Positions 5,350-31,887 of a stretch of 53,755 nucleotides of DNA are shown here, in pieces; position 1 is the stretch's first letter; every line of letters begins with the position of its first letter. The position numbers and the translations under genes were made by a program. The stretch is from Bacteroidia bacterium. Its GTDB lineage: Bacteria > Bacteroidota > Bacteroidia > Cytophagales > Flammeovirgaceae. The DNA is taken from the NCBI GenBank assembly GCA_030425505.1, contig JAUIAB010000022.1, positions 1 through 53,755 on the forward strand, given 5' to 3'. The notes beneath the pieces are model-generated. The model had not been told where the DNA came from. It saw nothing but the letters and a program-made list of their open reading frames with translations, and made no database searches.

Positions 5350-5364
5350 AATGGAAAAATGTTG

Positions 5365-5411
5365 TGCGATATATTCAATAACAAGTTTAAAAATAAATTT
5401 ACTATATCGCA
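5365..5411. promoter_or_regulatory. Operator-like inverted repeat between CHC2/AAA+ and XRE genes
   Basis: TGCGATATA at 5365-5373 and TATATCGCA at 5403-5411 form an inverted repeat in the AT-rich divergent promoter region. A related ATCGA/TCGAT motif occurs farther right (about 5428-5463). This is where an XRE repressor would be expected to bind to control both directions. The same sites occur in unit 2 at 13881-13927. Confidence 0.5.
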
Positions 5412-5494
5412 ATAAATATATTGTATAAATCGAAATAAGTTGCTATAAGTTTTCTTTATCGATATTTTTATGATGTAGTACAAATCCTGCCAGT

Positions 5495-5860: not shown

Positions 5861-5991
5861 ATGAACAAGATGAGTTGATATTACCTCCTACTAATTCTAT
5901 AGAAGAGAACGCCAGGATTTGGGCAGAGCATTTTAACTCTACCATCTTACCAGGGCATGGAATCTTCTTTGACTTTAACAAATTACCCTGA
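5857..5991 (+). CDS. Small ORF (44 aa) coupled to XRE gene
   Basis: The frame starts at the ATG that shares an ATGA overlap with the XRE stop. It encodes a 44-residue acidic peptide beginning MNEQDELILPP and ending FFDFNKLP. I do not recognise a family. The tight overlap and the identical copy in unit 2 support translation. The C-terminal third overlaps the next small ORF in another frame, so one of the two may be the product of a former frameshift. Confidence 0.5.
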   Translation: MNEQDELILPPTNSIEENARIWAEHFNSTILPGHGIFFDFNKLP

Positions 5992-6088
5992 ATTTGAAAT
6001 ACCTTGTCTGGAAGCTTTGCAAAAAAACCATGGGTGGATTCTCGAAAATCCCTACTTTATCCGTAAACAAGAATATACAATTATCTAA
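5957..6088 (+). CDS. Small ORF (43 aa) at right end of unit 1
   Basis: A second frame begins at the ATG at 5957, overlaps the 44-aa ORF by 35 bp, and ends exactly where homology between the units ends. The peptide reads MESSLTLTNYPEFEIPCLEA onward to IRKQEYTII. The only two base differences from unit 2 in this stretch (AAT/AAC, CCC/CCT) are both silent third-position changes in this frame, which argues that it is coding. If the two small ORFs were one gene, a +1 shift near 5960-5985 would join them into a protein of about 75 residues. Function is unknown. Confidence 0.5.
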   Translation: MESSLTLTNYPEFEIPCLEALQKNHGWILENPYFIRKQEYTII

Positions 6089-6145
6089 ACCAGTAACCCA
6101 AAGCACCTGACCTCCTTAAATCTTAAGGGTAATAGAGGGCATCAA

Positions 6146-6514
6146 TTACCAAATATTCCATCCACCATTTGTTTCAACCTGAAGCATGACAGCTTCTACA
6201 CAATTCCTATCTTCAGATTTTAAAGACACTAAAAGCTCTGTATCATCTTCAAATTTAATTGCAATTTTTTCTTCTTTTTCCTCCTCAAAGGCAGATATAA
6301 TTTTTTTACCTATCAATGAGTGTAAAGTATCATAATAGCCAAAGTCTTTTGATGTAATAGTTTTATCTTTAGTTTTTAGCCTAGGTAAAGTATAAGTATT
6401 TAAAATTGACTCCTCTACTAAAAACTGAATATAACCTCTGATAAAAGTTATTCCTACTAGTTCAAGGGTCTCCAACAGTTCTAAAATTGACTTATTTGAC
6501 TTTTGCTTTTCCAT
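6146..6514 (-). CDS. Putative orphan immunity protein
   Basis: The 122-residue acidic protein (from the ATG at 6514; a TTG five codons upstream would start inside the MITE) has no signal peptide. Its ending, EAVMLQVETNGGWNIW, resembles small cytoplasmic immunity-type proteins found downstream of polymorphic toxins, but I cannot name the family. It lies in line with the RHS orphan tip and its immunity gene upstream, and 57 bp from the right end of mobile unit 1. A MITE inserted directly before the start codon has separated it from its original 5' region, so its expression is doubtful. Its cognate toxin is not in the window. Confidence 0.55.
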   Translation of the reverse strand: MEKQKSNKSILELLETLELVGITFIRGYIQFLVEESILNTYTLPRLKTKDKTITSKDFGYYDTLHSLIGKKIISAFEEEKEEKIAIKFEDDTELLVSLKSEDRNCVEAVMLQVETNGGWNIW

Positions 6515-6518
6515 AACT

Positions 6519-6799
6519 AGTGTCTGCAAGAAAATTCATTTTTATTCACTTAAACTATGATTATCAGTATTTTATATTTAAAATCAAATTAATTTTTGCC
6601 TCGAATCTAATGAGGTAAAATGGTATCTCTCATATATTTTTTCTCCTACAAACCATACAGGCAGCATTTATCAGGGTTTTACATGAAATAGCATCCATTT
6701 ATTCGTTTGAGATTCAAATGAAAAATTGGCTCATTTTTTAGTGTTACAATCTTATTATCAATATTTTACTTAAAAATATACAGTTTTCTTGCAGACACT
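6519..6799. mobile_element. MITE, 281 bp
   Basis: Perfect 16-bp terminal inverted repeats, AGTGTCTGCAAGAAAA at 6519-6534 and its complement at 6784-6799, bound a 281-bp AT-rich non-coding segment. A 4-bp target duplication AACT lies on each side (6515-6518 and 6800-6803). Near each end is a related ATTATCA(A/G)TATTTTA stretch in the same orientation. No transposase remnant is visible, so it would have been moved by an IS elsewhere. It fills most of the gap between two immunity-like genes. Confidence 0.85.
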
Positions 6800-6855
6800 A
6801 ACTAAATTAATTTGCAAGTATGTGCCACCATAGATTAGATAGCAGGAAAAGGAAT

Positions 6856-7254
6856 TTACAAGCTTAATTCATGAAGTTTTGAGATACTATTTATCATAAT
6901 TTCTTTACAGAAAAAACTAATAGTATCATTTTCATAATCTTCAATTTGATAGCTTATATTTTCTAAACCATCTTTAGAAATATCCAAAATATCAAAGCCA
7001 GATATTTGATGGATTTTAGTATTTCCCCATTCTATCTTTAGGTTACATACATTTAAAAAAATTATTGAAATCTCAAAAAATGCTTTATTTAAATCTGGCC
7101 ATTCGCATTCAAAAGAATTATTCCTCTGTTGGGAGTAACAACACAGTTCTAAGTTTCCCATTGATAGCCCTAGCTTTGAAATAAATGCTATGTCTGAAGG
7201 TTTCCAACTTTTATTAACCTTCATTATTTTATTTATACCTTTTATTTTCCTCAT
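6856..7254 (-). CDS. Putative immunity protein for the orphan RHS tip
   Basis: The 132-residue protein has no signal peptide or membrane segment and no family I can name. Its ATG overlaps the TGA of the RHS tip gene (ATGA, 7251-7254), the normal arrangement for a polymorphic toxin and its neutralising partner. A cytoplasmic immunity protein fits a tip whose C-terminus looks like an intracellular-acting enzyme. Composition is typical of small immunity proteins, rich in Ile, Asn, Ser and Glu. Assignment rests on position rather than on homology. Confidence 0.65.
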   Translation of the reverse strand: MRKIKGINKIMKVNKSWKPSDIAFISKLGLSMGNLELCCYSQQRNNSFECEWPDLNKAFFEISIIFLNVCNLKIEWGNTKIHQISGFDILDISKDGLENISYQIEDYENDTISFFCKEIMINSISKLHELSL

Positions 7255-8561
7255 TGTCCAAAGAAGTTAAATACTGACTCTTTACCAAAGTTTGACCATT
7301 TGTAACCATATTGATATTGATGAAGGTGAGGAACACTATGATTTAATGGTCTCATGTGATTTGAGAAATCTACTCGATAAATTTGACGACCAAAATCATC
7401 ATATATTACTCGTGAACTTTCAAGTCTTCCTGTTCTACCACTAATTCTCGTCCAATCTAATCTTTTAGTTCCTGGGGAAACTTGCTTTGAAGCATATTTA
7501 GTCCAGTACTTATTATACCTAGCTGCTTCGGAAGCATCCATCATTGAACTGAAGCTTTTCCCACTTCCAAAACTAAACTTCTTACCAGCAAAATCGCCTC
7601 CAAGTTTGATGTCTTTAGTGCTTAACAGAGACGCATCTTTATTTAGAGTATTTGGTACTTTTAGTTTAGTAGTTAAGTTATCTAACTTAATATCTGCTTT
7701 TATAGCAGCAGGTTTATTATTGAGAGGAGTAATTTTAGGCTTAGGAACAGATAGCTTACCTTGCGAAATTTTATCATTTATATTAGCTGCTTTTAAGCTA
7801 TTTGCTACCTTCCCTAAACCATAACCCGCAGCGCCCATTGCAGCTCCAGTAATTCCTCCCATTACAAAACCAGTAGCGGTAGCTTGCACTGTTTCTCCAA
7901 AATTATTACCACCTAATATAGAGTTGCCACCGCTAGAGATCGCACCGCTGAGCGCTCCCGAAGCAGCTCCCGCATATATAAAACTACCTAAAGCACTCGC
8001 TCCAGTAGCAGCCGCCGAAGCAGCTGCAGGATTGAAGGTAGCAGCTCCAACTGCACCAGCTGCTGCGCCTACTGCAAAGTAGCCTAACCCTTCCCAAAAA
8101 TTATTTACATTATTAGCATTCACGGCAAGATTAATCACCCCTCCAATTACTGCCCCAGCAACAATATGCCAAAACTCTCCATCAGGATCAATTCCATTAA
8201 ATGGATTATTCCCCATAGCCAGGTAAGGAGAGTGGAACTGAGATTGGGGGTCTGTGGCATTCCATCTGCCCAGCTGCGTATCGTAGAACCTAGAACCAAA
8301 GTCATCATAAACGAAACTTCCTACCTTCTCCCGCTCTTTGCCTTGGAACTGCCAGTTGTAGTTGTAGGCTAAGTAGTTCCTTGAAATACCCTCCAGCTTC
8401 TGCCCGAATGGTGAATACCCAGTACCTCTTTTTGTACTACTACTTTTGCTTCCTGATCCCTTCCAGACAGTGAAGGTTTTTCCCTCTAAACCCTCCTTCT
8501 CATAATATGTCAACTTCAAGCAGCCCACTACCACTAAGGTATCACTTTTTTTAGAGTACAA
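7251..8561 (-). CDS. Orphan RHS C-terminal toxin tip
   Basis: The 436-residue product lacks a signal peptide and the YD-repeat shell. Residues 49-120 are an RHS core end (FQGKERE, YDDFGSRFYDTQLGRWNATDP, SPYLAMGNNP) almost identical to that of the full-length protein encoded at 15603-22976. Directly after AMGNNP the sequences part. A glycine/alanine-rich, probably membrane-inserting region follows (about 128-265), then a C-terminal domain (about 335-436) with GRQIYRVDF and a cluster NHMRPLNHSVPHLH. That His-rich segment recalls polymorphic-toxin nuclease domains, but I cannot name the family with confidence. DNA homology to the full gene covers 8204-8411 versus 16514-16721. This is a displaced tip with its immunity gene, available for recombination into the main gene. 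Confidence 0.8.
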   Translation of the reverse strand: MYSKKSDTLVVVGCLKLTYYEKEGLEGKTFTVWKGSGSKSSSTKRGTGYSPFGQKLEGISRNYLAYNYNWQFQGKEREKVGSFVYDDFGSRFYDTQLGRWNATDPQSQFHSPYLAMGNNPFNGIDPDGEFWHIVAGAVIGGVINLAVNANNVNNFWEGLGYFAVGAAAGAVGAATFNPAAASAAATGASALGSFIYAGAASGALSGAISSGGNSILGGNNFGETVQATATGFVMGGITGAAMGAAGYGLGKVANSLKAANINDKISQGKLSVPKPKITPLNNKPAAIKADIKLDNLTTKLKVPNTLNKDASLLSTKDIKLGGDFAGKKFSFGSGKSFSSMMDASEAARYNKYWTKYASKQVSPGTKRLDWTRISGRTGRLESSRVIYDDFGRQIYRVDFSNHMRPLNHSVPHLHQYQYGYKWSNFGKESVFNFFGQ

Positions 8562-9780: not shown

Positions 9781-10662
9781 TTACAGTGGATGATATTTTT
9801 CTATTTCTTCAATTAAACTATCCAGATTGTTGATTTGATAGCTTTCTGCAGAACTAATATACCGATGCCCTGCCATGTATTGTACCTCTCTCAAGTTATA
9901 GCTTTTGATCCAGTGAGTAATTACGGATGCTCTGATCTGATACGCATTTTTTACTTTTGGGTGGATTTTTTGGGCTTTTAAAAGCACGTAGTTTAACAAG
10001 TTACTCATCCGATACTCTCTCCCTCCCTCTGCTACTATTAGTTGGTGGTTGTTTAGATCTTCTTTTTTCCCTAGTAGTCTCTTCCTTGATTTGGCGATGT
10101 AGTTGTTTAGGTTCATGAACTGTTGGGGTTTTAGGTCTAGGACTCTGCCATTAGATCTCAAGGTTGCAGGGATGCATATATTGCCTTGCTCTAAGTTGAT
10201 GTCCCGTAGTTCCAGTTTAGCTAGTTCTTTGGTCTGTATCCCCTGAAATAACAGTAACCCTAGTATTACTTTGTTTCGTATGTCTCTATCTGACTTGCTT
10301 GGATATTGGTAGTATATCTGCTCCATCTCTTTTACATCTAGTAAGTCATATAGTTTTTTTCTTTGTATTCCTTGTATCTGTATCCCAATGGTTGGGTTGG
10401 TTTCTATAACCTCCTTTTTTATCAGGAACGCATAGTACTGCTTTAGGATGGCTACAATTTGCTGCAGGTATCTCTGCGATAGGTTTTCGTTTTTGAGGGT
10501 TTGTATGTAACCAATGATCTCCTGATGTCTGACCTGATTATCTTTTATGCCCTCCTCCTCTAACCATTTTTGATACTTGGCTATTCTTTTCATATAGCCC
10601 TCAACCGTAGTAGCTCTGTAGTCTCTTTCTAAAAGGTATTTCTTATAGTCTCTAAAGCTCAT
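9781..10662 (-). CDS. Tyrosine recombinase, degenerate partner (unit 2)
   Basis: The 293-residue protein equals its unit 1 counterpart except for one Thr-to-Ala change (SSTES to SSAES, next to the nucleophile Tyr) and loss of the last Gly. As there, Arg I is replaced (GIQTKEL) and the HxxR box reads YQIR, while the distal Arg, His and Tyr remain. It overlaps the 317-aa recombinase by 11 bp. The differing codons all lie in the last 30 residues, which suggests a conversion or exchange junction near 9870. Confidence 0.88.
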   Translation of the reverse strand: MSFRDYKKYLLERDYRATTVEGYMKRIAKYQKWLEEEGIKDNQVRHQEIIGYIQTLKNENLSQRYLQQIVAILKQYYAFLIKKEVIETNPTIGIQIQGIQRKKLYDLLDVKEMEQIYYQYPSKSDRDIRNKVILGLLLFQGIQTKELAKLELRDINLEQGNICIPATLRSNGRVLDLKPQQFMNLNNYIAKSRKRLLGKKEDLNNHQLIVAEGGREYRMSNLLNYVLLKAQKIHPKVKNAYQIRASVITHWIKSYNLREVQYMAGHRYISSAESYQINNLDSLIEEIEKYHPL

Positions 10663-11605
10663 GGTGTTGGGGTAAATGCGTATATCTCTGTGTGCTTTCC
10701 AGGCTGCTGTGTCCCAAGAATCGGGATATGGCTTCTATACGCATCCCTGTTTCCATCAGATGGGTAGCTATGGAATGACGTAGTGTATGTAATCCTATTT
10801 TCTTTTGTAGTAACTCTGGATCTTGTGTCGTAGTCTGTAGCCCCTTAAGCCGTAGGGAAAGTGTCTGCGCCTGTATTCTTTTAGCTGAGGGATGGGATAT
10901 AAATAAAGCTTCTTGTTTTCTCCCTTTCAGTAAGTTTACTCTATGATCATAGATGTATTGGGTCAGATAGTATAGATTCTTTTTACTGATTGGTACTAGT
11001 CTTTGTTTGTAGTTTTTACCTTTCCTCACCTTTAATAGTCCTTTCTCAAAGTGTATGTCCGAGACATCTAGCTGTACACCCTCTCTACTTCTAAGTCCAC
11101 AACCATAGTATACCGCCAGCATCGCTCTGTCTCTTGACTGTAGTGCCTGATAGGTTTTGACAGAGATGTATGCAGATGGTGTAGGGGTATGGTAGCTTGC
11201 CTCAAATAAGAGTTGTATTTCTTTTAATGTAAGGTAGTTGATATACTGGGTAGTTTCTTCTCTTTGTAGTTCACTAAGACTTATGCTCACTTTACCACTT
11301 AGATGCAGGTAGTCTATAAATCGCTTGATAGCTTGTATGTGTTTGTTCAAGTAGGCATTGCTGAGTCCTCCTTTCAGGTTTTGGTTTGCTCTGATCTTAA
11401 GCTTTTGGTAGTGGGCTAAGATGTGTGTTTGATTGAGCTGTTGTATGGGATAGACTCCCTCTTGCTCCAGGTAATGGAGTAGTTCCCGTATGTATACAGG
11501 CAAACTCTTAATTGTGCTTGCAGCATAGCCCTGGATGTCCAGCCATTCTTTGAAGCTCTGCTGCAAGTATCTGAAGCTCTGATTTTGTAGGTGTAGTCTT
11601 TTCAT
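10652..11605 (-). CDS. Tyrosine recombinase/integrase, canonical (unit 2)
   Basis: Identical in sequence to the 317-residue unit 1 enzyme, with the full R172, H273-x-x-R276, H299, Y308 set. Because the copies are identical, both units could be mobilised by either enzyme, and which copy is active cannot be told. It is the first gene of the recombinase pair and follows the conserved leader. Confidence 0.93.
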   Translation of the reverse strand: MKRLHLQNQSFRYLQQSFKEWLDIQGYAASTIKSLPVYIRELLHYLEQEGVYPIQQLNQTHILAHYQKLKIRANQNLKGGLSNAYLNKHIQAIKRFIDYLHLSGKVSISLSELQREETTQYINYLTLKEIQLLFEASYHTPTPSAYISVKTYQALQSRDRAMLAVYYGCGLRSREGVQLDVSDIHFEKGLLKVRKGKNYKQRLVPISKKNLYYLTQYIYDHRVNLLKGRKQEALFISHPSAKRIQAQTLSLRLKGLQTTTQDPELLQKKIGLHTLRHSIATHLMETGMRIEAISRFLGHSSLESTQRYTHLPQHHEL

Positions 11606-11701
11606 CTATTTAAATGTTTGTGACCTGCCTGGTTTTTTGGGTATACATCTTAATCATTGATTCCTGTGTACCTCTATTTTAAATCAGACATGGTCTGTTC
11701 C
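11603..11701 (-). promoter_or_regulatory. Conserved leader of recombinase operon (unit 2)
   Basis: Same sequence as the unit 1 leader, so it also aligns without gaps to 31647-31745. The remaining gap up to the CHC2/AAA+ gene (11702-11957) holds the same TTATTCT runs and weak terminator as unit 1, and no gene. Confidence 0.6.
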
Positions 11702-11957
11702 TGTTTCTTGCCTATGCCCAGTCCGATGCAAACAGTGTTTGTTTTTTATTCTTTGTATGTTGGTGTAGTGGTGTAGTAAGATGGTGTTGAGTAGTTCCAA
11801 TGTTTCTCTTTTAAAGGAAGCATGAGCTTCATGAAAAAAAAGCCCCGCTTGACCCTTTCCTGTTATTCTTGTTATTCTGTTATACTAGAACTTAAGTATC
11901 TGGTTTTGTGATTTCTGCATCTTTTATGAAAGGTGTTATACTTCTGTTACTCTTATG

Positions 11958-13865
11958 TTATTCTTGATTATTTTGTTGATTTTTAAGGTTTTCCAGTAGT
12001 TTGTCTAGTTGGTTGATCCCATTTTGTAGTTCTTCGTATTCTTCCCATTGACTTATCTGGTATTCGTAGCCCTGTTTTTTGTTGCCCCCTTTTTTGCTGA
12101 TGTAACCAAAGCTTACCAGTGTCCTAATGTATCTGCTTAGTTTCATCGGATAGATCCTAAACTGTTGTCTCAATGCTTTGCTATAGAAGCTGTCCTGGTT
12201 TTGTCTTTTAAGGTAGGCTTTGATCTGTTCAAAGAGGCTGCGTATGGATTTTGGCAGTTCATCGCTTTTGGTAAGCAATACGTCTTTGATCAGATGATTG
12301 GCGATGGCTATGTCTTCCAGTGTGGTTTGTATATATACTTCTCCCGTCTCTTTATCTATTTTTTCTTCTCTCTGGTACTGGTGATACCAAGTGACCGTTT
12401 CTATGAATTGCAAGTAGTGTTGGTTTGTCCGTAATGGTTTGAAGCAGTAGCTCGGGATTTTTAGCTTTTCTGCATAGGGGTTGATTACTCTGGTAGGCTT
12501 GAGTACTCTTTGGATGTTTTGTAGTGTTCCTGTGGCTTCTCTCTCTTTTTGGATGTTTATTTTTCCTGCAAAGAGTTTTCTTTGGTAGTCCATGATTTGT
12601 TCTTGTTGGTGAGGGCTGTTATCCAGATGAAGAAGCAGGCATCTATTTGCATTGTCTTCGTAGAGTTTTTCCTGGGTGGTTGTTCCGCTTAAACAGATAG
12701 GTCCATATACTTCCAGTTTCTTTGTTTTGGTGATTCCCTGACTGTCTTTGATAGGTACTATTCTATTGATCCAATGTTTGGTTTGTAGTTCTCGTAATGG
12801 GTACAACAGGTACTGCGCTCCGTCCATGTCTTCTATAAGGACTAGTTTGTGGTAGAGGTCATAGGGTTCTAAGTAGTAAAAGGCGTTGCCTGTGCTGGAG
12901 GTAAAGGTGAACTTTTCTTCTTCGATGATGTATCTGGCTACTTTTTCCTGCAAATAGGTTTTCCCTGTACCAGATGCTCCCAGACAGATCACATGCAAGG
13001 GATTAGACAGTTTTCTGCTACTGTACACTAGCCATAGTATTTGTCTGTTTATCTCTTCTCCTACAATACCACTTTCTCCAAGTAGCTCATTGGTTCTTTG
13101 CATCAGATTGGGCTGCTTTAAGAATGCTATTGCTTCCTCTTTTTCTTCTGTTGTTAGTGGTGGGGTTTTGGGTGTAGCTTCTTTTTCTTCTTCTATTCTC
13201 TCCAAGCGATAGGCTTCCAGTTGATCTGTGAGTTTTTGAAGACTGCTTTCTATGATGCTTGTTCCCAGCTCTAATCGCTCTGCTGTTTTGCGAATCAGTT
13301 TTTGGATTTGGTCGTCATTGTATAGATCCAAGCTGTGGCGGAGGCTTCTCTTATTTGGAGTAGATAGGTCTTTGATTTTAAGGGTACAGCGAAGTCTGTC
13401 CAAGCCCATCAGCTGGATGCCGCCCAAGATGTCTATCCCAAGACTTTCGTCTCTGTACTGCAGATGCTCTGGGTTGGAAGTATCGAGCATCCCAGCTACA
13501 GAACTGCTTCCTGATGTAGAAGCAGTCCCTTGCTGAGAGTAGACCTGATCGGTCTGGGCTTCTTTACTGTCTTTACTCTCTGGCAGTATACCTATGATTT
13601 CTTTGGCTTTTTCTATGGCTTCTTTTTTAGATATGTTTTCCATCTTTTCTATAAAATCAATTACATCTCCATTACCTGCACTACATTCTTTGTGGAAACA
13701 ATGATACCTGTTACTGTCCTTGTAGACTTGCATCGTCTTCTTATTACTCTTCTTGGTGGGTGTATGGAAGGGGCAGCTTAGTGATCCACTAGCAGTAGCT
13801 TTTAAGTTGTAATGACTTAGTACCTCTGTGATGGTGAGGTGGGTCTTGATTTTGTGGATGTGCAT
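11958..13865 (-). CDS. CHC2 zinc-finger plus AAA+ ATPase (unit 2)
   Basis: Identical by eye to the unit 1 protein: CHC2 zinc finger, Walker A GASGTGKT, Walker B VLIEDMD and a C-terminal winged-helix-like region. I use the same downstream Met (635 residues); the frame is open to 13928 (656 residues), which would run through the operator palindrome at 13881-13927. It is divergent from the XRE gene. Confidence 0.75.
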   Translation of the reverse strand: MHIHKIKTHLTITEVLSHYNLKATASGSLSCPFHTPTKKSNKKTMQVYKDSNRYHCFHKECSAGNGDVIDFIEKMENISKKEAIEKAKEIIGILPESKDSKEAQTDQVYSQQGTASTSGSSSVAGMLDTSNPEHLQYRDESLGIDILGGIQLMGLDRLRCTLKIKDLSTPNKRSLRHSLDLYNDDQIQKLIRKTAERLELGTSIIESSLQKLTDQLEAYRLERIEEEKEATPKTPPLTTEEKEEAIAFLKQPNLMQRTNELLGESGIVGEEINRQILWLVYSSRKLSNPLHVICLGASGTGKTYLQEKVARYIIEEEKFTFTSSTGNAFYYLEPYDLYHKLVLIEDMDGAQYLLYPLRELQTKHWINRIVPIKDSQGITKTKKLEVYGPICLSGTTTQEKLYEDNANRCLLLHLDNSPHQQEQIMDYQRKLFAGKINIQKEREATGTLQNIQRVLKPTRVINPYAEKLKIPSYCFKPLRTNQHYLQFIETVTWYHQYQREEKIDKETGEVYIQTTLEDIAIANHLIKDVLLTKSDELPKSIRSLFEQIKAYLKRQNQDSFYSKALRQQFRIYPMKLSRYIRTLVSFGYISKKGGNKKQGYEYQISQWEEYEELQNGINQLDKLLENLKNQQNNQE

Positions 13866-14010
13866 AATGGAAAAATGTTGTGCGATATATTCAATAACAA
13901 GTTTAAAAATAAATTTACTATATCGCAATAAATATATTGTATAAATCGAAATAAGTTGCTATAAGTTTTCTTTATCGATATTTTTATGATGTAGTACAAA
14001 TCCTGCCAGT

Positions 14011-14376
14011 ATGAATTTAGGTAGTATAATAAAGAGAATAAGAGAACAGAAGGGCATGCTTCAAAAACAGGTAGCAGCAGAGTTAAATATTGGAGCATCT
14101 AATTACAATAAACTGGAGAACGGCATTAGAGAACCTTCTGTGAAGGAACTGCAACTTCTGTCTAAGTTATTTGGTATGACCACAGATCAAATTTTGAATT
14201 ATGAAGGTGCATTACCAGAGGAAGTTACTTTAGAGGACAAGCCAGGTTTTGAACAATTTAATATGATGAACAAGCTTGATGATGAGGATAGGTCAATTGT
14301 TTTGAAGATTATTGATACTATGCTTACAAAGAAGAAGTTCAAGGATTTTTTTGAGAAGAATATAGCTGCATTATGA
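14011..14376 (+). CDS. XRE-family helix-turn-helix regulator (unit 2)
   Basis: Same 121-residue product as in unit 1, with a Cro/CI-type HTH in the first 62 residues. With two identical repressors and identical operators, the two units should repress each other. It overlaps the next small ORF by ATGA. Confidence 0.88.
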   Translation: MNLGSIIKRIREQKGMLQKQVAAELNIGASNYNKLENGIREPSVKELQLLSKLFGMTTDQILNYEGALPEEVTLEDKPGFEQFNMMNKLDDEDRSIVLKIIDTMLTKKKFKDFFEKNIAAL

Positions 14377-14507
14377 ATGAACAAGATGAGTTGATATTAC
14401 CTCCTACTAATTCTATAGAAGAGAACGCCAGGATTTGGGCAGAGCATTTTAACTCTACCATCTTACCAGGGCATGGAATCTTCTTTGACTTTAACAAATT
14501 ACCCTGA
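14373..14507 (+). CDS. Small ORF (44 aa) coupled to XRE gene (unit 2)
   Basis: Same 44-residue peptide as in unit 1, starting at the ATGA overlap with the XRE stop codon. No family is recognised. It shares its last 35 bp with the following small ORF in a different frame. Confidence 0.5.
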   Translation: MNEQDELILPPTNSIEENARIWAEHFNSTILPGHGIFFDFNKLP

Positions 14508-14604
14508 ATTTGAAATACCTTGTCTGGAAGCTTTGCAAAAAAACCATGGGTGGATTCTCGAAAACCCTTACTTTATCCGTAAACAAGAATATACAATTAT
14601 CTAA
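14473..14604 (+). CDS. Small ORF (43 aa) at right end of unit 2
   Basis: Same 43-residue peptide as in unit 1 despite two base differences, both silent in this frame. Its stop codon is the last shared triplet of the two units, so the ORF defines the right edge of the core. Confidence 0.5.
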   Translation: MESSLTLTNYPEFEIPCLEALQKNHGWILENPYFIRKQEYTII

Positions 14605-15602: not shown

Positions 15603-18600
15603 TTATTTATTAATGAAAGATGTAAAGTATGTATTCTGTCTTAAAAACATTTGGAATTGTAGTAAAGATGGATGCCTCAAGAAAGGCATATTTAAAACTC
15701 CAGCTTTTAATAAAGCTCTTGATGTTTCAGTCACACAACTACGACCTATAGCTTTATACCTAAAAGCATTTGTCAATTTATCTTTAACATATTCATTAAC
15801 TTTATCTAATCTTACATTATGAATTTTTATTTTAGATACAGTTAATTTATCTATTCCAGTATCATCTAAATGATTATACCAATCATTCATTCCAGGTGCA
15901 TTCCAAAAACTATCTCCTTGAACTGCTCTGCTCCAATCAGGACCTACAGATACTATATTATTTCCGTTTTCGTCAACAAGTGCAGAGTGTCCTATAGGAT
16001 CATTCTTAGTTACCAAATCAATTTCGCTTGCTTTATTACCATATGCTCCTTTTATGAAACTATAAGTATCTGATAAATTAGCAAATAAACCCAATCCATA
16101 CCCAATGTTCTCTAAAGTAGAATTACCTTTTTTACCTAGATAGCCCCATTGGTTTTGTGTAAAACTATAAGAAGCAACTCCCAAACTTACCCCTATTTCT
16201 GACTGTCCGTAATATCCACCCTGGTAGATGCTAGTTCCTATGGAATTAACAAATGAAGCAGTAGCAATACTAAGTGTATTAGCAAATACACCTCCTGAAG
16301 TAGCTACAACATGTCCTAAAGCGCCAGAAGCCCCACCTACAACAGCTCCGCCAGCCATATACCCCCAAGTTCTACCCGATTGCCAATCCCATTTGCCAGG
16401 GTTGTACTGTCCTCCATTGGCTGCAACCCCACCAGAGTAAGCTCCTGCTACCGCCCCAATAATGATCGGTACAAACCATGCTAATTCTCCATTAGGGTCT
16501 ATGTAGCTAATGGGATTATTCCCCATAGCCAGGTAAGGAGAGTGGAACTGAGATTGGGGATCTGTGGCATTCCATCTGCCTAACTGGGTGTCATAGAACC
16601 TCGAACCAAAGTCATCATAAACGAAACTTCCTACCTGCTCCCTCTCTTTCCCTTGGAATTGCCAGTTGTAGTTGTAGGCTAGGTAGTTCCTTGAGATGCC
16701 TTGGAGTTTTTGCCCGAATGGGTAGTAGTGTGTCTCTTGCACTACTTTTATGCTAGCAACTTTTAGGTCATCAAACCATACAGGACTGCTTTCTGCCCAT
16801 ATTTTTACTTTTATGTAACTACCCTCTTCCCATTCTTCGCCTAAAGTGAGATCTGCTTCTAGCTTTTGCCAGCTATCCCAGGCATCTGCTTGTACTATTA
16901 CTTCTTCTAAAACCTGATCATTAGCACTGTAAAGAGTCACCGCAAGCTTACCAAGAGGGGTAGAAAGGGGTTTGTTACCTCCTCCAGGGAATATCCCTCT
17001 GGTTTGTGCCAAGCCTAAAAGGTTAACTCCTGTCTGCAATGGGTATTTTGCATTGCCCGTCTCACTAGAAGCTTTCGGCAAAGCACCTCCCGTAAAACTA
17101 AAGCTTGAAAAGAAATCATTTGCATTTCTATTTCTTCCGTCGGGGAACTCTCTTTCTGCTCCTTCCGCAGCTATGTATACCGAAGCAGTGTAAGTATAGC
17201 CCATTTGGGCAGAAATTGGCATGGTAAAAACATAACTAGCCTCTTCTTCTGGGTTGGAGTTAGCCAGGCGTACAGACTCTCTTCCTGACCTGCTTTGTTC
17301 ATTGTCTCTGTATAAAGCTAGGTTCATGAAGAAAGCTTCTTCCTCTTCAGCACTTTGCACTTCTGCCGTCATTGTGCCATGTACTTCTCCTCGGTAAGCC
17401 AATCGAAGATTGCCCAGATGGTCAGAGTAATGGTATTCGTACGTTGGAGTATCGGCATTCGCATTTCCTTCCTCTTCCAGCCAGGCAGGAAATACGATAC
17501 GCCCTTCTTCCATTTGTAAAAACTGCAATTCGTTGTTTTTGTAAACGAAACCTGCAATATAATCATATATTTCCTCAGGGTTGTTATTGTCATCGATATG
17601 CACCCTTCTTTGTAATCGCATACCACTGGCATCGTAGGTATAGGAAGTTCTATGAAAAATATTACCCATCACCTGAGTAGGTAACTGCAAGTGGTTATAG
17701 CCTATAGAGGTTATACCTCTTTTATCTGCTCGGGACAAAGCGCCAATGGTATTGTACTCAAAAGCTCTGTTGTTTATAGGAAAAGCTGCTTTCTTATAGT
17801 CATTGCCAACCCCTTGGATTTCTGCCTGCTCAAATACATTGGTAAGTAAATTACTATTTCCTCCATTGGCATAGCTATAATTGAGTTTATCTATTATACC
17901 AAACTCTTGGTTTTCCACATTTTGCAAACCATACCGGGAAAGCTGCTTTATGTTTCCATTATAATCGTAACGGATACCTGTTTCTCTATCTTCGGAGTCG
18001 AAACCTGTCACGGAGTAATTTTCGCCCCCTGCCCCACTAAAAAGAGCCTGACTTAGTTGGTTAAGATCATCGTAGCGGAAGCGATAGTTCCTTTGCTGCT
18101 GGTCAGTAACGCTTTTCCAATGGGCTTCGCCAATCTGCCCATTGTATTGCTCAAAGCCCTCTGCACTTTGATCGTACTGCAGAGAGAGGTGAAATAGCTT
18201 TTCCAGGGTAGCATTACTTTCTGGATCGTTAATTTTTTTCAGCCAGCCTCTTTGGTGGTATTCATACGAAACCTCTTGCAAACCATTCGCTACCGATTTG
18301 CCAATTTGCTGTCCCAGCTCATCGTATTGGTAGCTGGCAATTTCTTTAAACTCACCATCGTTTAGTCTGTGTTGAATACTCATCAATCTTCCAGCATGAT
18401 CGTATGCATAGACTTTTTGTAGTGTTACCCTCTGCTCTGCTACAGGGTTATGGTGGCTGAGATAAGTAGCCATAGTTTGTCCTGAATAGTCGTATTGGCT
18501 GGTGGCAATATCTACTCCGCCTTTGTGGTTTTCCGATTGCACCTGAATTACCCTTTGTTCCTCGTCGTAAAAGGTAATGGTCTCCAGCCATTGATCCGAA

Positions 18601-21600
18601 TCCAGAATTTTTGTCTTGCTCACCGTTGGTAATCCTTTTAGCTGTTGCAAATACAAAGCAGGTGCAGAATAGTTGGGGTTCAACTGTTCTGCCTGCACTT
18701 CTACAAATTCTTTTTCTGTGTCAATATATTCATCGAAATATTGGATACTCAATGGCTCGCAGTTTTCCGCAGGAGGAAAAGCAAGATCGCTGTACGCTCC
18801 AACTTTAGGATCTTGCCACTGTGGGTTTTCTTCTGTGAGAAATACATCCAGGTTTTCCCAGTCTTTAATCGTATTTGCCAACTCTTCTCTATCTCTCCCT
18901 TGTGGATCGGTAAATAGCCCTGTAATCACTTTTCTATCCTGGCGATCGTATTTGGTATACAGCCATTGGTCGTGCAATCGCATTTGCCCATCCTGCATGA
19001 GTACAGGTCTGTCCAAGCGATCATAAACAAAGTAAGTTGGCTGCGCACTAGGTATTTTTTCTTCTATTTTTCTTCCTCTCGCATCGTATCGGTAGGCATA
19101 GCCCAACTGTTCTATAATTGACTGATAGTGGGTTGCCAGAAAGTTATTAGCGATAGCCTTAGTTGCTTTGGGAGGAATGGTATATCGCAACTGCCCGAAG
19201 TGGTCGTATACATAGTAGGTATCGAGGTAATGGGTTTCTTCTCCTTCTCTATGAATGGCTCTTTTTAAGACAGTCTGTCCTAAGCCATTGGTATATTCAT
19301 ACATGGAGTGATGATGCTCATCGGTTACTTTGGTAACCCGAAGTGTTGCTTCCGAATGATAAGGCATATCAGAGTTCACTACCAACTGGGCATTTACCAC
19401 CTCCCAATCAATAACGGGCAGAAGGTTATCTTCATCGTGGTTTAAACTATATTCTACTTGTGTGTTTTTAGGATTTTCTGAGATAATGCTACCCATCCAG
19501 CTATCCCCAGGTGCAAAGCTTTTCTCTGCTCTTCGAAGTGGACTTTTCTCAGGTAATGTTAAGCTGTAAGGGTATCTGTTTTCTACAATACTGCTTTGAT
19601 CGTTTTGGTAAAATAATCTCTGGCTTTCAAATGCATTTTCCTGATAGTCAGAAGCCTGACTATCTGATACATAGGATTGATATTGTATATTTTCTGTGCC
19701 CGTAAGATCGTAGCTATGTATTTGTATGGCATCTTTTCGCTGTGGGCTAGCCTGCCAGCTGTTTTCCTGAATTTTTCTTCCCAAACCATCCAAATACTGG
19801 GTCTGTATGCTAACATTTTCAGGGTCAAAGTTATCTGGTGTCAATCTCCCATTTATATCTGTTTCTAAATCTTCCAGATAGGTCTCTTCATGAAAGGTAT
19901 AGCTTCGTACATAGTGCTTGGTTGGGTTCTCTCCAGCTAATACTTCGTTTACTTCATTGAGAAACATTGGCAGTATTTCTGGAAATCTTGCCTGTATATC
20001 AGGAAATACTACTCTGATATCCTCTTCTCCTGGTGGTAGTACTATAATTCTCTTGCTCCAAAGCTTGAGCTCACCTAATCGTATTTGAAGAGATCGTATT
20101 CCTATATCTTCCGCCTGAAATAAAATAGGAATGGATTGAGGATCATTTAATGGTATATCTGCTATATGCCGATCCTGTAGGTAAAGTTGTACATTTTGAA
20201 AAGCAGGGTCTATTTCTCCTTCCAATTGCAGCTGATAAGTATAATTTTGACCAGCATAGACGATACTGTCTCCTTCCATCCAAAGGTTGGGGAGCCGAGG
20301 CTGTGTTTCAAGTACTACAAAAATAGGTTGCGGTCTGTTGTTTAGGTAAATTAATGCAGATACCTGATGCTCTGTTTCCTGAAAATCCCAGCTAATATTG
20401 GTTTCCCATCGAGGAAATTCTTCCTGCATAGTACCACCTGTAACAAACCACTCTATGGATTGTATTTCGCTTTCTGGTGGGGTGTCTTCTAAGGTGTAGT
20501 TATAGACAATATTTGGTTGACTTATATTTTCTTCTCCTTCTATATACGGCTGGAAAGGGTTGAAATGGACAGGGCATTCCAAGGTTTCACTTTCCCACTC
20601 TGGGTTCTGATAATGGATGGTCAAATAGATCATACCCTGCTGTAATTCTTCATTTTCTTCCCAGACAACAGTAATACTTTGCTGGTCAGGGCTTTGTCTC
20701 CTTATTTCTCCGTTTTCTACCTGCCACTCTAATCTTTCGATCGGGTGTTCTGCCCATATTGGCAATGCCTGGTAGGTATATTCTTCATCAAATATTCGTA
20801 TGGTATCTTGCCCTGCAATTTGGATGGCATTCATTTGCACCGCCATTCTACAGGCAATCACTTCTTCCTCTACTAGAAGAAGATTAACGTTCACTATTGG
20901 CTCTTCGGCATATCTATCCCATTGTACTTCTATGCTTCTTTCGTTTTCTGCTATTATTTCTCCTCCTTCTACGCTCCAGTTTATGTTTTCTATTTCTTCG
21001 TTTTCAAATCGACTGTTTAATGCATAGGTATAGGTTTGACCATTGTAATAGATCTCTTCCGTTCCTGTAATGAGACAAGTTGGTCTGTCGTCTATTGCTA
21101 GGGTAATGGGATGACTTTGAAGGGTTAGCCTTGGGACTCTTGGGTTGGTGACCGTAACTCTGTAAATTCCAGCAGTCTCCTCTACCATATTTTCTAAAAG
21201 AAAACTATTTTCATTTCCTCTGCTAATTTCTTCATTGTCTTTGTACCACACATATTCATTATCTTCTATTTCTTCATCTATACCTAAGTTAATTAGGTAG
21301 TTTTCTCCTTCCCTGATATAAATGGTGGTGTCAAAGCCAAATGAGTTCTGACGCGAATAAATGTACCTTTGAAGAGGTAAGTCAATATAGTATTCTACAT
21401 CATCGAAAGTCAATTTATTGTCGTTAATATGAAGGTATCTAAGTGAAGGCCAGTCCTTGGTTTCTAACTCAGCTAAGTTATTGTTGTGTAAGTAAAGAAC
21501 TCTTAATGACTCCCAGTCCCCTACTTCTATTTCTTCTAGCTCATTTTGATGTAAAAGTAACTGCTTTAGTTTTGACCAATTTCTTCCTACAAAAGTTGTA

Positions 21601-22976
21601 AGCTGGTTATTATGTAAATGCAGCCATTCTAGTTCTGCCCACTCTTGTTCAGTCAGTTCTACCAGTCTATTGTCGTCAGCATAGAAACGAATTAACTGTG
21701 ACCATTCTCGAGTTTGCAGTGCTTCTAATTGGTTGTGGTTTACATGGAAATACCTTAACTCTAACCACTCTCGAGTTTCTAGCTCTGCTAAATTATTATT
21801 GTATACATAAAAAACTCGTAACGACTCCCAGTCTCCTACTTCTAGTTCTTCTAGCTCATTTTGGTGTAAGAGTAATTCTCTTAAGACAGGCCAATCTCTT
21901 CCTCTAAAGGAGGTAAGTTGATTGTTTTGCAATCGAAGCGACTCCAGCCTAGGCCATTCTTGTACTACAAATTCTATTAATCCATTATTGTGTGCATGAA
22001 GTCGTATTAACTGTGGCCATTCTCTACTTTCCAACACTTCTAACTGGTTGTGGTTTACATGGAAATACCTTAACTCTGACCATTCTCGAGTTTCTAGCTC
22101 TGCTAAATTATTGTTGTATAAATAAAGAACTCGTAACGACTCCCAGTCTCCTACTTCTAGTTCTTCTAACTCATTTTGGTGTAAGAGTAATTCTCTTAAG
22201 ACAGGCCAATCTCTTCCTCTAAAGGAGGTAAGTTGATTGTTTTGCAATCGAAGCGACTCCAGCCTAGGCCATTCTTGTACTACAAATTCTATTAATCCAT
22301 TATTGTGTGCATGAAGTCGTATTAACTGTGGCCATTCTCTACTTTCCAACACTTCTAACTGATTGTGGTTTACATGGAAATACCTTAATTCTGACCATTC
22401 TCGAGTTTCTAGCTCTGCTAAATTATTATTGTATAAATAAAGAACTCGTAACGACTCCCAGTCTCCTACTTCTAGTTCTTCTAGTTCATTTTGGTGCAAG
22501 AGTAATTCTTCTAAATTTGGCCAATTAAATGCTGGAAATAATCTAATTCGATTAGAAAATAGATGTACTTTTTTTATTGCATCTAGTGCATTTAAATCAT
22601 TTGGTATATTGGAAAGGTTCTTTCCATTTAGTAAGAGTCGTATAACTCTGTTACTTGCTATGACAACTCCTTCCCAGGTGTTTATTGGTTGTTCGAGATC
22701 CCAGCCCAAAGCATTTTCGGGGTTAGCTTCGTGGAGAGCAACAAGTGCTAAAGAGTCTTGTTCAGCTACCTGTGCCTGGTTTGGGGTATTTAGGAAGGCA
22801 AGAGTTATTAGTGTTATTAATGTTAGTTTTAGGATGTTTTTTAAGGAAGAACGCGTTTGGAAACGCGCTCCAGTGGTACTAGTTATCAGATCCTGAATCA
22901 AGTTCAGGATGACTTTCAAGGTTGGTTTTGTAATTTTATTTTTCATTTTTATGTAAAATGGATAAATATTTTTCAT
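15603..22976 (-). CDS. Giant LRR-YD-repeat RHS protein with hydrolase-like toxin tip
   Basis: The 2457-residue exported protein has a long n-region and hydrophobic signal (about 47-68, ending NQAQ). Leucine-rich repeats follow (about 140-530, 21-residue units in three 105-residue blocks), then Ig/PKD-like domains (about 540-1000), a DUF6443-like start (near VRSYTFHEETYLED), YD repeats, and the RHS core end LGRWNATDP...AMGNNP (to about 2155). The variable tip (2156-2457) has hydrophobic Gly-rich segments, then GHSAL (H2330) and SCVTETSRALL (C2414). His-before-Cys order is that of permuted NlpC/P60-like cysteine hydrolases, so a cell-wall amidase toxin is my inference. It sits 15 bp after the 1324-residue YD protein and before a lipoprotein immunity candidate. 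Confidence 0.82.
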   Translation of the reverse strand: MKNIYPFYIKMKNKITKPTLKVILNLIQDLITSTTGARFQTRSSLKNILKLTLITLITLAFLNTPNQAQVAEQDSLALVALHEANPENALGWDLEQPINTWEGVVIASNRVIRLLLNGKNLSNIPNDLNALDAIKKVHLFSNRIRLFPAFNWPNLEELLLHQNELEELEVGDWESLRVLYLYNNNLAELETREWSELRYFHVNHNQLEVLESREWPQLIRLHAHNNGLIEFVVQEWPRLESLRLQNNQLTSFRGRDWPVLRELLLHQNELEELEVGDWESLRVLYLYNNNLAELETREWSELRYFHVNHNQLEVLESREWPQLIRLHAHNNGLIEFVVQEWPRLESLRLQNNQLTSFRGRDWPVLRELLLHQNELEELEVGDWESLRVFYVYNNNLAELETREWLELRYFHVNHNQLEALQTREWSQLIRFYADDNRLVELTEQEWAELEWLHLHNNQLTTFVGRNWSKLKQLLLHQNELEEIEVGDWESLRVLYLHNNNLAELETKDWPSLRYLHINDNKLTFDDVEYYIDLPLQRYIYSRQNSFGFDTTIYIREGENYLINLGIDEEIEDNEYVWYKDNEEISRGNENSFLLENMVEETAGIYRVTVTNPRVPRLTLQSHPITLAIDDRPTCLITGTEEIYYNGQTYTYALNSRFENEEIENINWSVEGGEIIAENERSIEVQWDRYAEEPIVNVNLLLVEEEVIACRMAVQMNAIQIAGQDTIRIFDEEYTYQALPIWAEHPIERLEWQVENGEIRRQSPDQQSITVVWEENEELQQGMIYLTIHYQNPEWESETLECPVHFNPFQPYIEGEENISQPNIVYNYTLEDTPPESEIQSIEWFVTGGTMQEEFPRWETNISWDFQETEHQVSALIYLNNRPQPIFVVLETQPRLPNLWMEGDSIVYAGQNYTYQLQLEGEIDPAFQNVQLYLQDRHIADIPLNDPQSIPILFQAEDIGIRSLQIRLGELKLWSKRIIVLPPGEEDIRVVFPDIQARFPEILPMFLNEVNEVLAGENPTKHYVRSYTFHEETYLEDLETDINGRLTPDNFDPENVSIQTQYLDGLGRKIQENSWQASPQRKDAIQIHSYDLTGTENIQYQSYVSDSQASDYQENAFESQRLFYQNDQSSIVENRYPYSLTLPEKSPLRRAEKSFAPGDSWMGSIISENPKNTQVEYSLNHDEDNLLPVIDWEVVNAQLVVNSDMPYHSEATLRVTKVTDEHHHSMYEYTNGLGQTVLKRAIHREGEETHYLDTYYVYDHFGQLRYTIPPKATKAIANNFLATHYQSIIEQLGYAYRYDARGRKIEEKIPSAQPTYFVYDRLDRPVLMQDGQMRLHDQWLYTKYDRQDRKVITGLFTDPQGRDREELANTIKDWENLDVFLTEENPQWQDPKVGAYSDLAFPPAENCEPLSIQYFDEYIDTEKEFVEVQAEQLNPNYSAPALYLQQLKGLPTVSKTKILDSDQWLETITFYDEEQRVIQVQSENHKGGVDIATSQYDYSGQTMATYLSHHNPVAEQRVTLQKVYAYDHAGRLMSIQHRLNDGEFKEIASYQYDELGQQIGKSVANGLQEVSYEYHQRGWLKKINDPESNATLEKLFHLSLQYDQSAEGFEQYNGQIGEAHWKSVTDQQQRNYRFRYDDLNQLSQALFSGAGGENYSVTGFDSEDRETGIRYDYNGNIKQLSRYGLQNVENQEFGIIDKLNYSYANGGNSNLLTNVFEQAEIQGVGNDYKKAAFPINNRAFEYNTIGALSRADKRGITSIGYNHLQLPTQVMGNIFHRTSYTYDASGMRLQRRVHIDDNNNPEEIYDYIAGFVYKNNELQFLQMEEGRIVFPAWLEEEGNANADTPTYEYHYSDHLGNLRLAYRGEVHGTMTAEVQSAEEEEAFFMNLALYRDNEQSRSGRESVRLANSNPEEEASYVFTMPISAQMGYTYTASVYIAAEGAEREFPDGRNRNANDFFSSFSFTGGALPKASSETGNAKYPLQTGVNLLGLAQTRGIFPGGGNKPLSTPLGKLAVTLYSANDQVLEEVIVQADAWDSWQKLEADLTLGEEWEEGSYIKVKIWAESSPVWFDDLKVASIKVVQETHYYPFGQKLQGISRNYLAYNYNWQFQGKEREQVGSFVYDDFGSRFYDTQLGRWNATDPQSQFHSPYLAMGNNPISYIDPNGELAWFVPIIIGAVAGAYSGGVAANGGQYNPGKWDWQSGRTWGYMAGGAVVGGASGALGHVVATSGGVFANTLSIATASFVNSIGTSIYQGGYYGQSEIGVSLGVASYSFTQNQWGYLGKKGNSTLENIGYGLGLFANLSDTYSFIKGAYGNKASEIDLVTKNDPIGHSALVDENGNNIVSVGPDWSRAVQGDSFWNAPGMNDWYNHLDDTGIDKLTVSKIKIHNVRLDKVNEYVKDKLTNAFRYKAIGRSCVTETSRALLKAGVLNMPFLRHPSLLQFQMFLRQNTYFTSFINK
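21565..22509 (-). repeat. Three 315-bp tandem repeats coding LRR blocks
   Basis: Within the giant RHS gene, about 22195-22509 and 21880-22194 are nearly identical 315-bp units (105 residues, five 21-residue LRRs of the type W..LR.L.L..N.L..L). A third unit at about 21565-21879 is diverged. The period divides by three, so unit gain or loss keeps the frame and changes the length of the LRR array. Confidence 0.85.
22852..22910. repeat. REP-like palindromic pair inside signal-peptide coding region
   Basis: Two palindromes lie 22 bp apart: CGCGTTT-GG-AAACGCG at 22852-22867 and ATCCTGAA/TTCAGGAT around a 5-base loop at 22890-22910. The second belongs to a dispersed repeat type (GTCATCCTGAA...) common in many bacterial genomes. 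Here both are translated in frame as part of residues 20-43 of the giant RHS protein, before its hydrophobic signal segment. Confidence 0.7.
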
Positions 22977-30746: not shown

Positions 30747-31649
30747 TTAAAAAATGTAATTGAGTGATACAGAGAACTGTTCACTCATTTTTGAAGTACT
30801 GTTATTCAATTTCTGATATAGTGGCAAAGACAGATTTGTTTGAATATTAAGAGATTTAAAGAAGGCACTTAAGCCAATTTGCCCAAAATGTACTTTACCG
30901 CCTGTTTTTTCTCTAAAATAGCCGTTGCTTTCATCTCTCTGATTTTTGGTGTATACCCAGCCACCAAAAAAGTTTATCTCTTTGCCAAATACTTTTCGTG
31001 TTGTAAATAAGTTTACATTGAAAAGTAATTCGTTGCCAATTTTATAGTTGTCATGATTTTTTGGATTAATCTTATACGATGCAATCACATTCAACCCTAC
31101 ACTTTTATAGCGAATAAGGTACGAGCTATTTAGTATCCAGTCTAAAGTTTTAGAGTTATAAGTAGACAAACCTTCCTCCTCATTGCTTGTTTTATTTTCG
31201 CCCAACAAGGTACTTGGTGTAAACTCTATTCCTCCAGAAAGATTGAATTGATGATAAATATTACCAATTAGAGTATCTAAAATTACAATGGTAGACAGTA
31301 TCTGTGCATCTCTTATTCCCGAGTATTCTTTTGTATCATTTTCTTCTTTCACTGAAAAAGTATAGTACCCAGTTCTTCCTGTTATTGAAACTCTTTTATT
31401 TAAATTGATAGTGCTTATCAATTCAATAAGCTCCTGATGCTTTATTTCTGGACTTCCCACTAAAGAAGATGGATAGCTATTATAGTTACTTCTAAACCAG
31501 GAGAATCCTATGTAGTTTTTTTGCCTTAGCCACGATGACCCGTAGATGTATTGTGGATAGTTACACCCACATAGATTACAGGCATCGATTGCAAAATGGT
31601 GTAGACAAAAAAACAATAAGATCACTCCTCCTCTTATCATTTTTCTCAT
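30747..31649 (-). CDS. Outer-membrane barrel protein with N-terminal CxxCxC motif
   Basis: The 300-residue protein has a signal peptide (about 1-22) followed directly by DACNLCGCNYPQ, a Cys cluster that would be exposed in the periplasm. The rest alternates in short beta strands with aromatic ends and finishes in F (SVSLNYIF), as outer-membrane barrels do. Bacteroidota proteins of this layout sit with DUF4625 lipoproteins and small Cys/His proteins in probable metal-uptake clusters, as here. Its 99-bp leader resembles the leader of the mobile-unit recombinase operon. Substrate unknown. Confidence 0.6.
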   Translation of the reverse strand: MRKMIRGGVILLFFCLHHFAIDACNLCGCNYPQYIYGSSWLRQKNYIGFSWFRSNYNSYPSSLVGSPEIKHQELIELISTINLNKRVSITGRTGYYTFSVKEENDTKEYSGIRDAQILSTIVILDTLIGNIYHQFNLSGGIEFTPSTLLGENKTSNEEEGLSTYNSKTLDWILNSSYLIRYKSVGLNVIASYKINPKNHDNYKIGNELLFNVNLFTTRKVFGKEINFFGGWVYTKNQRDESNGYFREKTGGKVHFGQIGLSAFFKSLNIQTNLSLPLYQKLNNSTSKMSEQFSVSLNYIF

Positions 31650-31745
31650 CTAATTTAAAATTTGTGACCTGTCCAGTTTGTTTGGCACACATATTAATCA
31701 TTACTATGTGTATATCTCAATTTCAAACCAGACATGGTCTGTTTC
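31647..31745 (-). promoter_or_regulatory. Leader shared with mobile-unit recombinase operon
   Basis: The 99 bp from the barrel gene's start codon upstream align without gaps to 3087-3185 and 11603-11701. The strongest blocks are TTTGTGACCTG and CAGACATGGTCTGTT. A hairpin (ACACATA/TATGTGT near 31686-31713) is possible here but is not kept in the element version. The gap to the next gene (31746-31937) holds a hairpin and no gene. Confidence 0.6.
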
Positions 31746-31887
31746 ATTTTTATTAATGCATTAATTAAACAAGTTTTCCAGCATAGATCCTGGATTCATG
31801 TAGCTATGTAACGCTTATTTTTGATCAAAAAAGCACCTGCAATTCTATGATTATTTTGCAGTTATGCTACAATTTACAGGTATTTGA

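Follow-up and report, generated by a model that had tools for sequence, protein, structure and literature searches.

The 99-bp leader shared by a tyrosine recombinase gene and a barrel-labelled outer-membrane protein gene in the DNA studied here very probably represents a small, non-autonomous mobile element, dispersed through the genome, that inserts at ATGAA(A), mostly at start codons, where it keeps the start of the gene. The genome has at least 114 copies, and the leader is specific to neither of the two genes. The window, i.e. the whole stretch that was analysed, comprises 53,755 nucleotides of contig JAUIAB010000022.1, from a bacterium of the Flammeovirgaceae.

RESULTS

Three copies of one leader in the window

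The leaders are read on the minus strand of the window, as are their genes. Gapless alignment of positions 31647–31745 with 3087–3185 gave 76 identical positions out of 99, whereas the top identity reached anywhere in the window by 40 shuffled queries was 50/99; the likeness of about 77% claimed in the first-pass annotation is thus real. The two near-invariant blocks that it described were confirmed too, and both are exact at three places of the window, not two: TTTGTGACCTG at 3101, 11617 and 31661, and CAGACATGGTCTGTT at 3169, 11685 and 31729. The third copy (11603–11701), overlooked in that annotation, is identical to the one at 3087–3185, and exists because a 4.8-kb recombinase unit occurs twice in the window.

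Before the barrel gene, the element occupies 91 nt (31654–31744, minus strand; AAACAGACCATGTCTGG...CACAAATTTTAAA on the gene strand), with boundaries drawn by per-column variability inside a covariance-model match at 31641–31753 (117.5 bits). Its left ATG (31745–31747, minus strand) forms, with the next AAA, the ATGAAA of the upstream junction. Variable bases (31650–31653, minus strand), four here and usually three, separate the element from the start codon of the 300-aa gene (30747–31649, minus strand), which begins at the element 3' end; the encoded protein, labelled a barrel protein earlier, had no Pfam match in a scan of eight window proteins. In copy A of the recombinase unit, the element (3093–3184, minus strand) has lost its left ATG, its upstream reading frame (uORF) is interrupted by TAG, and the gene beginning at its 3' end encodes a tyrosine recombinase of 317 aa (Phage_integrase; 2136–3089, minus strand). 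The element in copy B (11609–11700, minus strand) is identical and precedes the second recombinase gene (10652–11605, minus strand). Elsewhere in the window, repeat units of about 315 bp, 82–89% alike, were seen at 21460–22509 within a 2457-aa ORF (15603–22976).

A family of 114 or more copies in the genome

With the leader as query, BLAST of its own genome (2.95 Mb, 41 contigs) gave at least 42 matches, with 40 of 132 candidates scored. A covariance model, built on 38 sequences (36 of 37 listed copies, the unit copy and L053), gave at least 114 copies at E ≤ 0.01 among the best 150 of 1959 candidates, and 112 of the 114 lie outside the two recombinase-unit copies. The genome-wide block search suggested in the first-pass annotation was run as two separate patterns allowing up to 3 mismatches: the 30-base left block had 77 matches and the 24-base right block 74, the reversed control pattern having none in either case, and all of these matches fall within the 114 model copies. 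They concentrate at start codons, and the picture of a plain dispersed repeat, scattered alike over coding and intergenic DNA, was not seen.

The model listing included three tandem sets of the element with a period of 95–97 nt, which fit insertion before the element's own ATGAAA. A second subfamily (CAGACATGTCTG...GACACACAGAGGGATGATTAAGCTGTGTGCC) keeps the inner hairpin with other bases. In a third, at C9:3574 and C21:346245, the 5' half of the element is the same, the 3' half is different (CATTGATTTTYAGTTAATTAGTAAA) and the right end is similar; the copy at C21:346245 had been considered as an insertion inside an acidic ORF, a case that was dropped as the copy is too degenerate.

Anatomy and boundaries

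The gene-strand consensus is (ATG)AAACAGACCATGTCTGATTTAAAATTGAGGCACACACGAAGCAATGATTAAGATGTGTGCCAAACAAACTAGGCAGGTCACAAATTTTAAA-NNN-ATGAAA, the element itself reading AAACAGACCATGTCTGATTTAAAATTGAGG...CACAAATTTTAAA. The shared part comprises 91 nt, with 5' end AAACAGACC and 3' end AAATTTTAAA; after it come three bases that vary freely, then ATGAA. Boundaries were estimated from the per-column difference in 176 pairs of close copies (less than 10% different, 54 copies). Flank columns 1–6 differed at 0.46–0.72 between such copies and columns 10–100 at 0.00–0.43, mostly low, whereas columns 101–103, the three bases before the start codon, differed at 0.53, 0.26 and 0.66 and were thus flank-like, which sets the length of the element at 91 nt. 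The right ATG differed at 0.10–0.19 and the left ATG at 0.16–0.36. Despite their flank-like variation, columns 101–103 were biased to CAG and CAC among the 114 copies. Within the element, the nine G/C columns of 13–38 differed about 4-fold less than the 24 G/C columns of 39–90 (hand-averaged means of 0.05 versus 0.19 between close copies). No terminal inverted repeats were seen by eye when AAACAGACC was compared with the reverse complement of the 3' end (TTTAAAATTTGTG); the subterminal match TTTAAAATT/AATTTTAAA is the sole inverted match of the ends in the consensus.

Filled and empty sites indicate insertion

Two element copies, C23:21223 and C19:104022, lie within another dispersed repeat of the same genome. 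This host repeat (TCAACTAACCTCG...AAGCAAGCTTCGAGG...; L189–L193, C23:21178–21366 and C19:103993–104152), which thus carries two element insertions, was found by a search with 22 matches, of which those with E up to 0.01 (all but 13) were considered. Five of its copies are without the element, and ATGAA is present at the corresponding point in four of them, the fifth (L191) being diverged there. The empty sites are paralogous copies of the repeat, compared with one fully filled site and with a second, C19:104022, which has lost its right end. An empty site reads ...CATAATAATGAAAAACATTTTTATAATTGG... (L190), and the filled site at C23:21223 reads GGTATAATA-ATGAAACAG...TTTTAAACAG-ATGAAAAAC (right side also written TTTTAAACAG-ATGAAAAACTTTTTATAATTG...). 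ATGAAA is thus single in the empty site and present at both junctions of this one filled site, where the element end may itself supply it. The comparison of empty with filled copies indicates that the element inserted at ATGAAA, and there not at a gene start. The copies C10:21555 and C25:9498 differ in about 1% of the compared columns and lie in flanks that do not match each other, a sequence comparison that points to recent movement.

Three origins had been offered for the shared leader in the first-pass annotation: a regulator site, an attachment site or the scar of a former insertion. The last was the right one: the element is very probably a small non-autonomous mobile element, and neither a regulator site nor a recombinase attachment site is supported. 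As the two window leaders are separate copies and both of their genes are targets among the 114, the link between recombinase and barrel protein is accidental.

Most copies end at the start codon of a gene

Of the 114 copies, 87 have at their 3' end an ATG (85) or GTG (2) that opens an ORF of 60 aa or more in the sense direction; this ORF has at least 100 aa in 82 of them, and the start is at the identical model position in 83. The other 27 copies comprise four upstream units of tandems, 11 next to a start that has changed, is damaged or lies nearby, and 12 without a gene start, the last being classed by reading and not by program. For ten out of ten chosen housekeeping genes (MnmA, PfkA, GltX, FabD, RpiB, Asd, TrxB, MtaB, CinA and YidD), the best NCBIfam model begins at residue 1–8 of the ORF, and therefore the ATG at the element is the native start of these genes. 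Further element-led genes encode RimM and an integrase; the scan that included these two gave no Pfam family for four of its ten proteins. Family scans covered 20 chosen proteins of the 84 listed, and the downstream genes inspected have no common theme. AAN is the second codon of 68 of the 87 element genes, versus 76 of 270 starts in element-free DNA. A long open frame enters from upstream in 14 of the start copies, and in a non-systematic reading of the copies none was recognised as splitting a gene. Relatives of the barrel protein in three other genomes (G006, G020 and G025) are without the element.

The excess at starts was assessed against 353 kb of other stretches, which were picked by hand, proved to be element-free and serve as a control, not as a random sample. 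With a minimum ORF of 60 aa, ATGAA occurs there 76 times at starts, 124 times at non-coding non-start positions and 1193 times in coding DNA; with a minimum of 100 aa, the figures are 73, 151 and 1169. Among harmless ATGAA sites, the observed share of starts is 87/99, versus an expected share of 0.33–0.38 raw or 0.47–0.53 after weighting for local context. A conservative count on element-centred loci, whose denominator counts element-bearing starts as available sites (the earlier element-centred background being biased), gave an expected share of 0.75 versus an observed 0.81 (50/62), which weakens the excess. Copies away from starts scored a median of 105.7 bits versus 110.8 for copies at starts (p = 0.41, n = 12 versus 87, low power); off-start copies are thus not younger, and this small set (n = 12) lends no support to loss with age. 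A preference for initiation sites is likely, though not proven; the excess at starts would mean that either insertion prefers such sites or the host keeps the copies that sit there.

RNA structure, upstream reading frame and promoter signals

When nine copies were folded, most gave the long hairpin of the consensus. Pairing of the long helix was evaluated in an alignment of 105 of the 114 copies, all but an identical unit copy, a truncated copy and the last seven of 112 listed; 87.0% of cells were paired, only marginally more than the 86.6% after shuffling, and 22 of 500 shuffles reached the observed value. The earlier statement that base pairing is not conserved therefore holds in that pairs are lost near-independently, and fails in that the consensus does fold. 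For hairpin 1 (CAGAC-CAT-GTCTG), covariation is weak, with a score reached by 1 of 500 shuffles, and both arms are altered together (CAGTC/GACTG) in copies from two genomes of another genus, G004 and G009. These also have a longer pairing, CAGTCCATG/CATGGACTG, before a gene read as trkA-like from its translation. We interpret this as a role of hairpin 1 and the 5' part either in the moving copy or in the host, with decay of the remainder. A search against Rfam 15 gave nothing at gathering threshold in the window, and nothing at E ≤ 1 in three loci with copies.

The consensus also contains a uORF open over 17 codons (MKQTMSDLKLRHTRSND) with nested hairpins. Its left ATG is intact by triplet count in 72 of 114 copies, about 10 more having a one-base shift, and type B copies break the first-ATG frame. 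In the 78 ungapped copies of the 114, premature stops occur in 20, versus 21.3 expected from shuffles, no excess of changes at third codon positions was found, and the ratio of nonsynonymous to synonymous changes is 0.51, a value that points towards selection but is confounded by base composition. Selection on the peptide was rejected, with no signal in stops or codon positions. The G009 peptide (MKRSIAEFKLSHTKSYN, translated by eye) shows conservative changes, a point for translation in an ancestral element.

The consensus of the Bacteroidota -7 box is TAnnTTTG. It matched none of 73 elements and 18 of 73 upstream flanks, versus 9.9 in shuffled sequence; with a TTG box at 17–23 nt, the counts were zero elements and four flanks versus 1.1 shuffled, and with a looser pattern one element and seven flanks versus 5.9 shuffled. 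A promoter within the element was rejected on the lack of a consensus match in the 73 elements.

Recombinase unit and candidate movers

The integrative unit (1272–6088 and 9788–14604) is present as two copies 99.8% identical over 4817 bp, which bracket about 3.7 kb, and encodes two tyrosine recombinases in overlapping genes, a primase-like protein with a CHC2 zinc finger and an HTH protein. Its ends (1272 and 6088) are without the element, which is internal at 3093–3184. Contig C33 carries two copies of a related recombinase gene about 8.9 kb apart; these two (41% identical) and a third related gene in G004 are also without the element, and a recombinase-specific leader or attachment site was rejected on these grounds.

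No transposase or parent element linked to the copies was found, nor was a longer autonomous copy, all 77 left-end and 74 right-end matches being inside the 114 short copies (draft assembly, estimated 95.71% complete, from which a parent may be missing). The one Y1_Tnp match found, at C32:30880, comes with a palindrome, CATAGCCCACGAATT/AATTCGTGGGCTATG, unrelated to the element, the nearest copy of which in that contig is at C32:24025. The locus (L172, 1408–1917, in C32) has a RAYT-like setting, in which a 142-aa Y1 transposase gene lies beside a perfect palindrome of 30 bp and an ORF of 458 aa, read here as methylase-like. Mobilisation by Y1/RAYT was rejected, since the one Y1 gene found carries another palindrome and has no element copies at its sides.

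Distribution beyond the genome

A family-level search of 18 genomes (best 150 candidates scored out of 1606–7440 per genome) gave at least 114 copies in the genome of origin, at least three in G009 and at least two in G004. The last two represent one other genus of the family, and two of their loci are orthologous by eye; the other 15 genomes had no matches among the candidates scored. At class level (395 genomes), a degenerate pattern gave one stray match (L176) outside the genome of origin; the same pattern picked up a single copy in G004 and another in G009. An exact 20-mer, in a search that may omit records very near this genome, gave three single matches in genome contigs of unrelated taxa (L173–L175) and none in viral contigs.

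DISCUSSION

Alternative explanations

A host-encoded, translated leader of an attenuator-like regulon, in which the uORF (MKQTMSDLKLRHTRSND) and hairpins would control translation of about 90 genes, is an unlikely account. The open 17-codon frame with its nested hairpins, the conservative peptide of the relative (MKRSIAEFKLSHTKSYN), the co-change of the hairpin 1 arms between genera with its covariation, and the N/S ratio of 0.51 would all suit it. Yet the left ATG is often lost and differs between close copies; premature stops come at their shuffled rate with no third-position excess, long-helix pairing barely exceeds that of shuffles, and type B copies disrupt the frame, while the genes examined are themeless and 12 copies precede no gene start. 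A shared regulator site is not supported either, given these themeless genes, the two copies in a non-genic repeat and the decay of the stem pairs. Nor do we give much credence to a DNA operator or promoter cassette, with CAGAC-N3-GTCTG as a repressor or activator site and TAAAATTG as a promoter box, which we judge very improbable: the palindrome is conserved and TAAAATTG resembles the -7 box, but TAnnTTTG itself is absent from the 73 elements, the palindrome changes symmetrically between genera, as suits a hairpin better than a fixed operator, and two copies sit in a non-genic repeat. That the leader belongs to the tyrosine-recombinase unit, as its attachment site or leader, and was copied to the barrel gene can be given almost no weight. 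Insertion by tyrosine recombinases can use short shared cores, and the unit does have the element beside its recombinase gene, but the element is internal to the unit and absent from its ends, three related recombinase genes go without it, and nearly all copies (112/114) are found elsewhere.

A more serious contender, possible although we would not presume it, accepts the mobile element and replaces targeting by host retention: insertion would be random among ATGAAA sites, copies at starts would persist as genes came to depend on the element's initiation region, and others would be deleted. Genes for GltX and FabD, usually essential in bacteria, carry the element; its A/U-rich end before the start (AAATTTTAAA) is near-invariant except for one column; and the conservative background count leaves little start excess to explain. 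Against retention, off-start copies are not younger, in a comparison of low power (n = 12 versus 87). That the element actively seeks start codons, reading ATGAAA at an initiation site exposed in transcription or translation, inserting one way, keeping a usable start for the gene and providing a portable leader harmless even on essential genes, is likewise a tentative proposal.

A model for insertion

The element inserts at ATGAA(A) in one orientation, with ATGAAA then at the upstream junction and, after three variable bases, at the downstream junction too, as the one site compared shows. With a start codon as target, an ATG would remain beside the gene and both start and protein would be kept, while the native leader would be displaced by about 100 nt and the A/U-rich end of the element would become the translation initiation region. 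Insertions elsewhere in genes would halt translation and presumably be lost. Transcription would start upstream of the element, as the distribution of TAnnTTTG (18/73 flanks, 0/73 elements) suggests. Either a target duplication of 3–6 bp or recombination within the shared ATGAAA core fits these junctions. The triplet at the right junction recalls the carry-over of tyrosine recombinases, but its CAG/CAC bias misfits simple carry-over; the flank-like variation of the three bases before the start is predicted by no simple insertion model and counts against this account, as does the failure to find a transposase, a parent element or terminal inverted repeats. The low difference in columns 13–38, together with the covariation of hairpin 1, could reflect a host function and also speaks against it.

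Relation to known elements

The transposons Tn916 and Tn554, which move by tyrosine recombinases, share a short core between target and junction and vary in a few bases at one of their ends; unlike them, the element encodes no recombinase, and its triplet is biased to CAG/CAC and does not resemble the A-rich left flanks. Putative mobile promoters, treated under the title 'Promoter propagation in prokaryotes', are reportedly similar upstream regions before non-homologous genes, whereas here there is a bounded element with empty sites and no consensus promoter. With REP/REPIN sequences and their RAYTs, and with IS200/IS605 (Y1 HUH), the element shares a hairpin near one end and no need for inverted termini; it differs in that the one Y1 gene found in its genome has an unrelated palindrome, with no element copies on either side.

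Among small dispersed elements (Correia/NEMIS, RUP, ERIC and YPAL), Correia copies are often just upstream of genes (PMC10969869, PMC2229807). The element is like prokaryotic MITEs and other small elements in its size of about 100 bp, its roughly 100 copies per genome (as RUP), its long-hairpin consensus, the lack of an encoded mover and its mostly extragenic location (PMC10969869, PMC2229807). It is unlike those MITEs in lacking both terminal inverted repeats and a TA target, in inserting at ATGAAA, in usually stopping three bases before a start codon and in having no promoter consensus. As a MITE should be, it is a short non-coding repeat, dispersed in 114 or more copies and seen at both filled and empty sites, but neither terminal inverted repeats nor an autonomous parent with matching ends was found in its own genome, so it is MITE-like and not a MITE in the strict sense. 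Rickettsia palindromic elements (RPEs) offer a further likeness, as small palindromic elements tolerated by conserved genes (PMC2229807). RPEs lie in frame inside ORFs, whereas the element described here leaves the protein unchanged because a start codon remains next to the gene. Searches of the open-access PMC literature listed no report of elements inserted at start codons; the start-codon habit looks new, while the MITE-like kind is already known.

The survival of small dispersed elements is generally put down to insertion into intergenic DNA, where they do no harm. The present element persists at the start codon, among the most sensitive sites that a gene has, because a start codon remains there. 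About 4% of the genes would thus share one leader, an estimate from 87 start copies and a total of about 2,250 starts, itself an extrapolation from the element-free DNA. This makes two questions testable: how much of the 5' untranslated region is swappable genome-wide, and what aims insertion at start codons.
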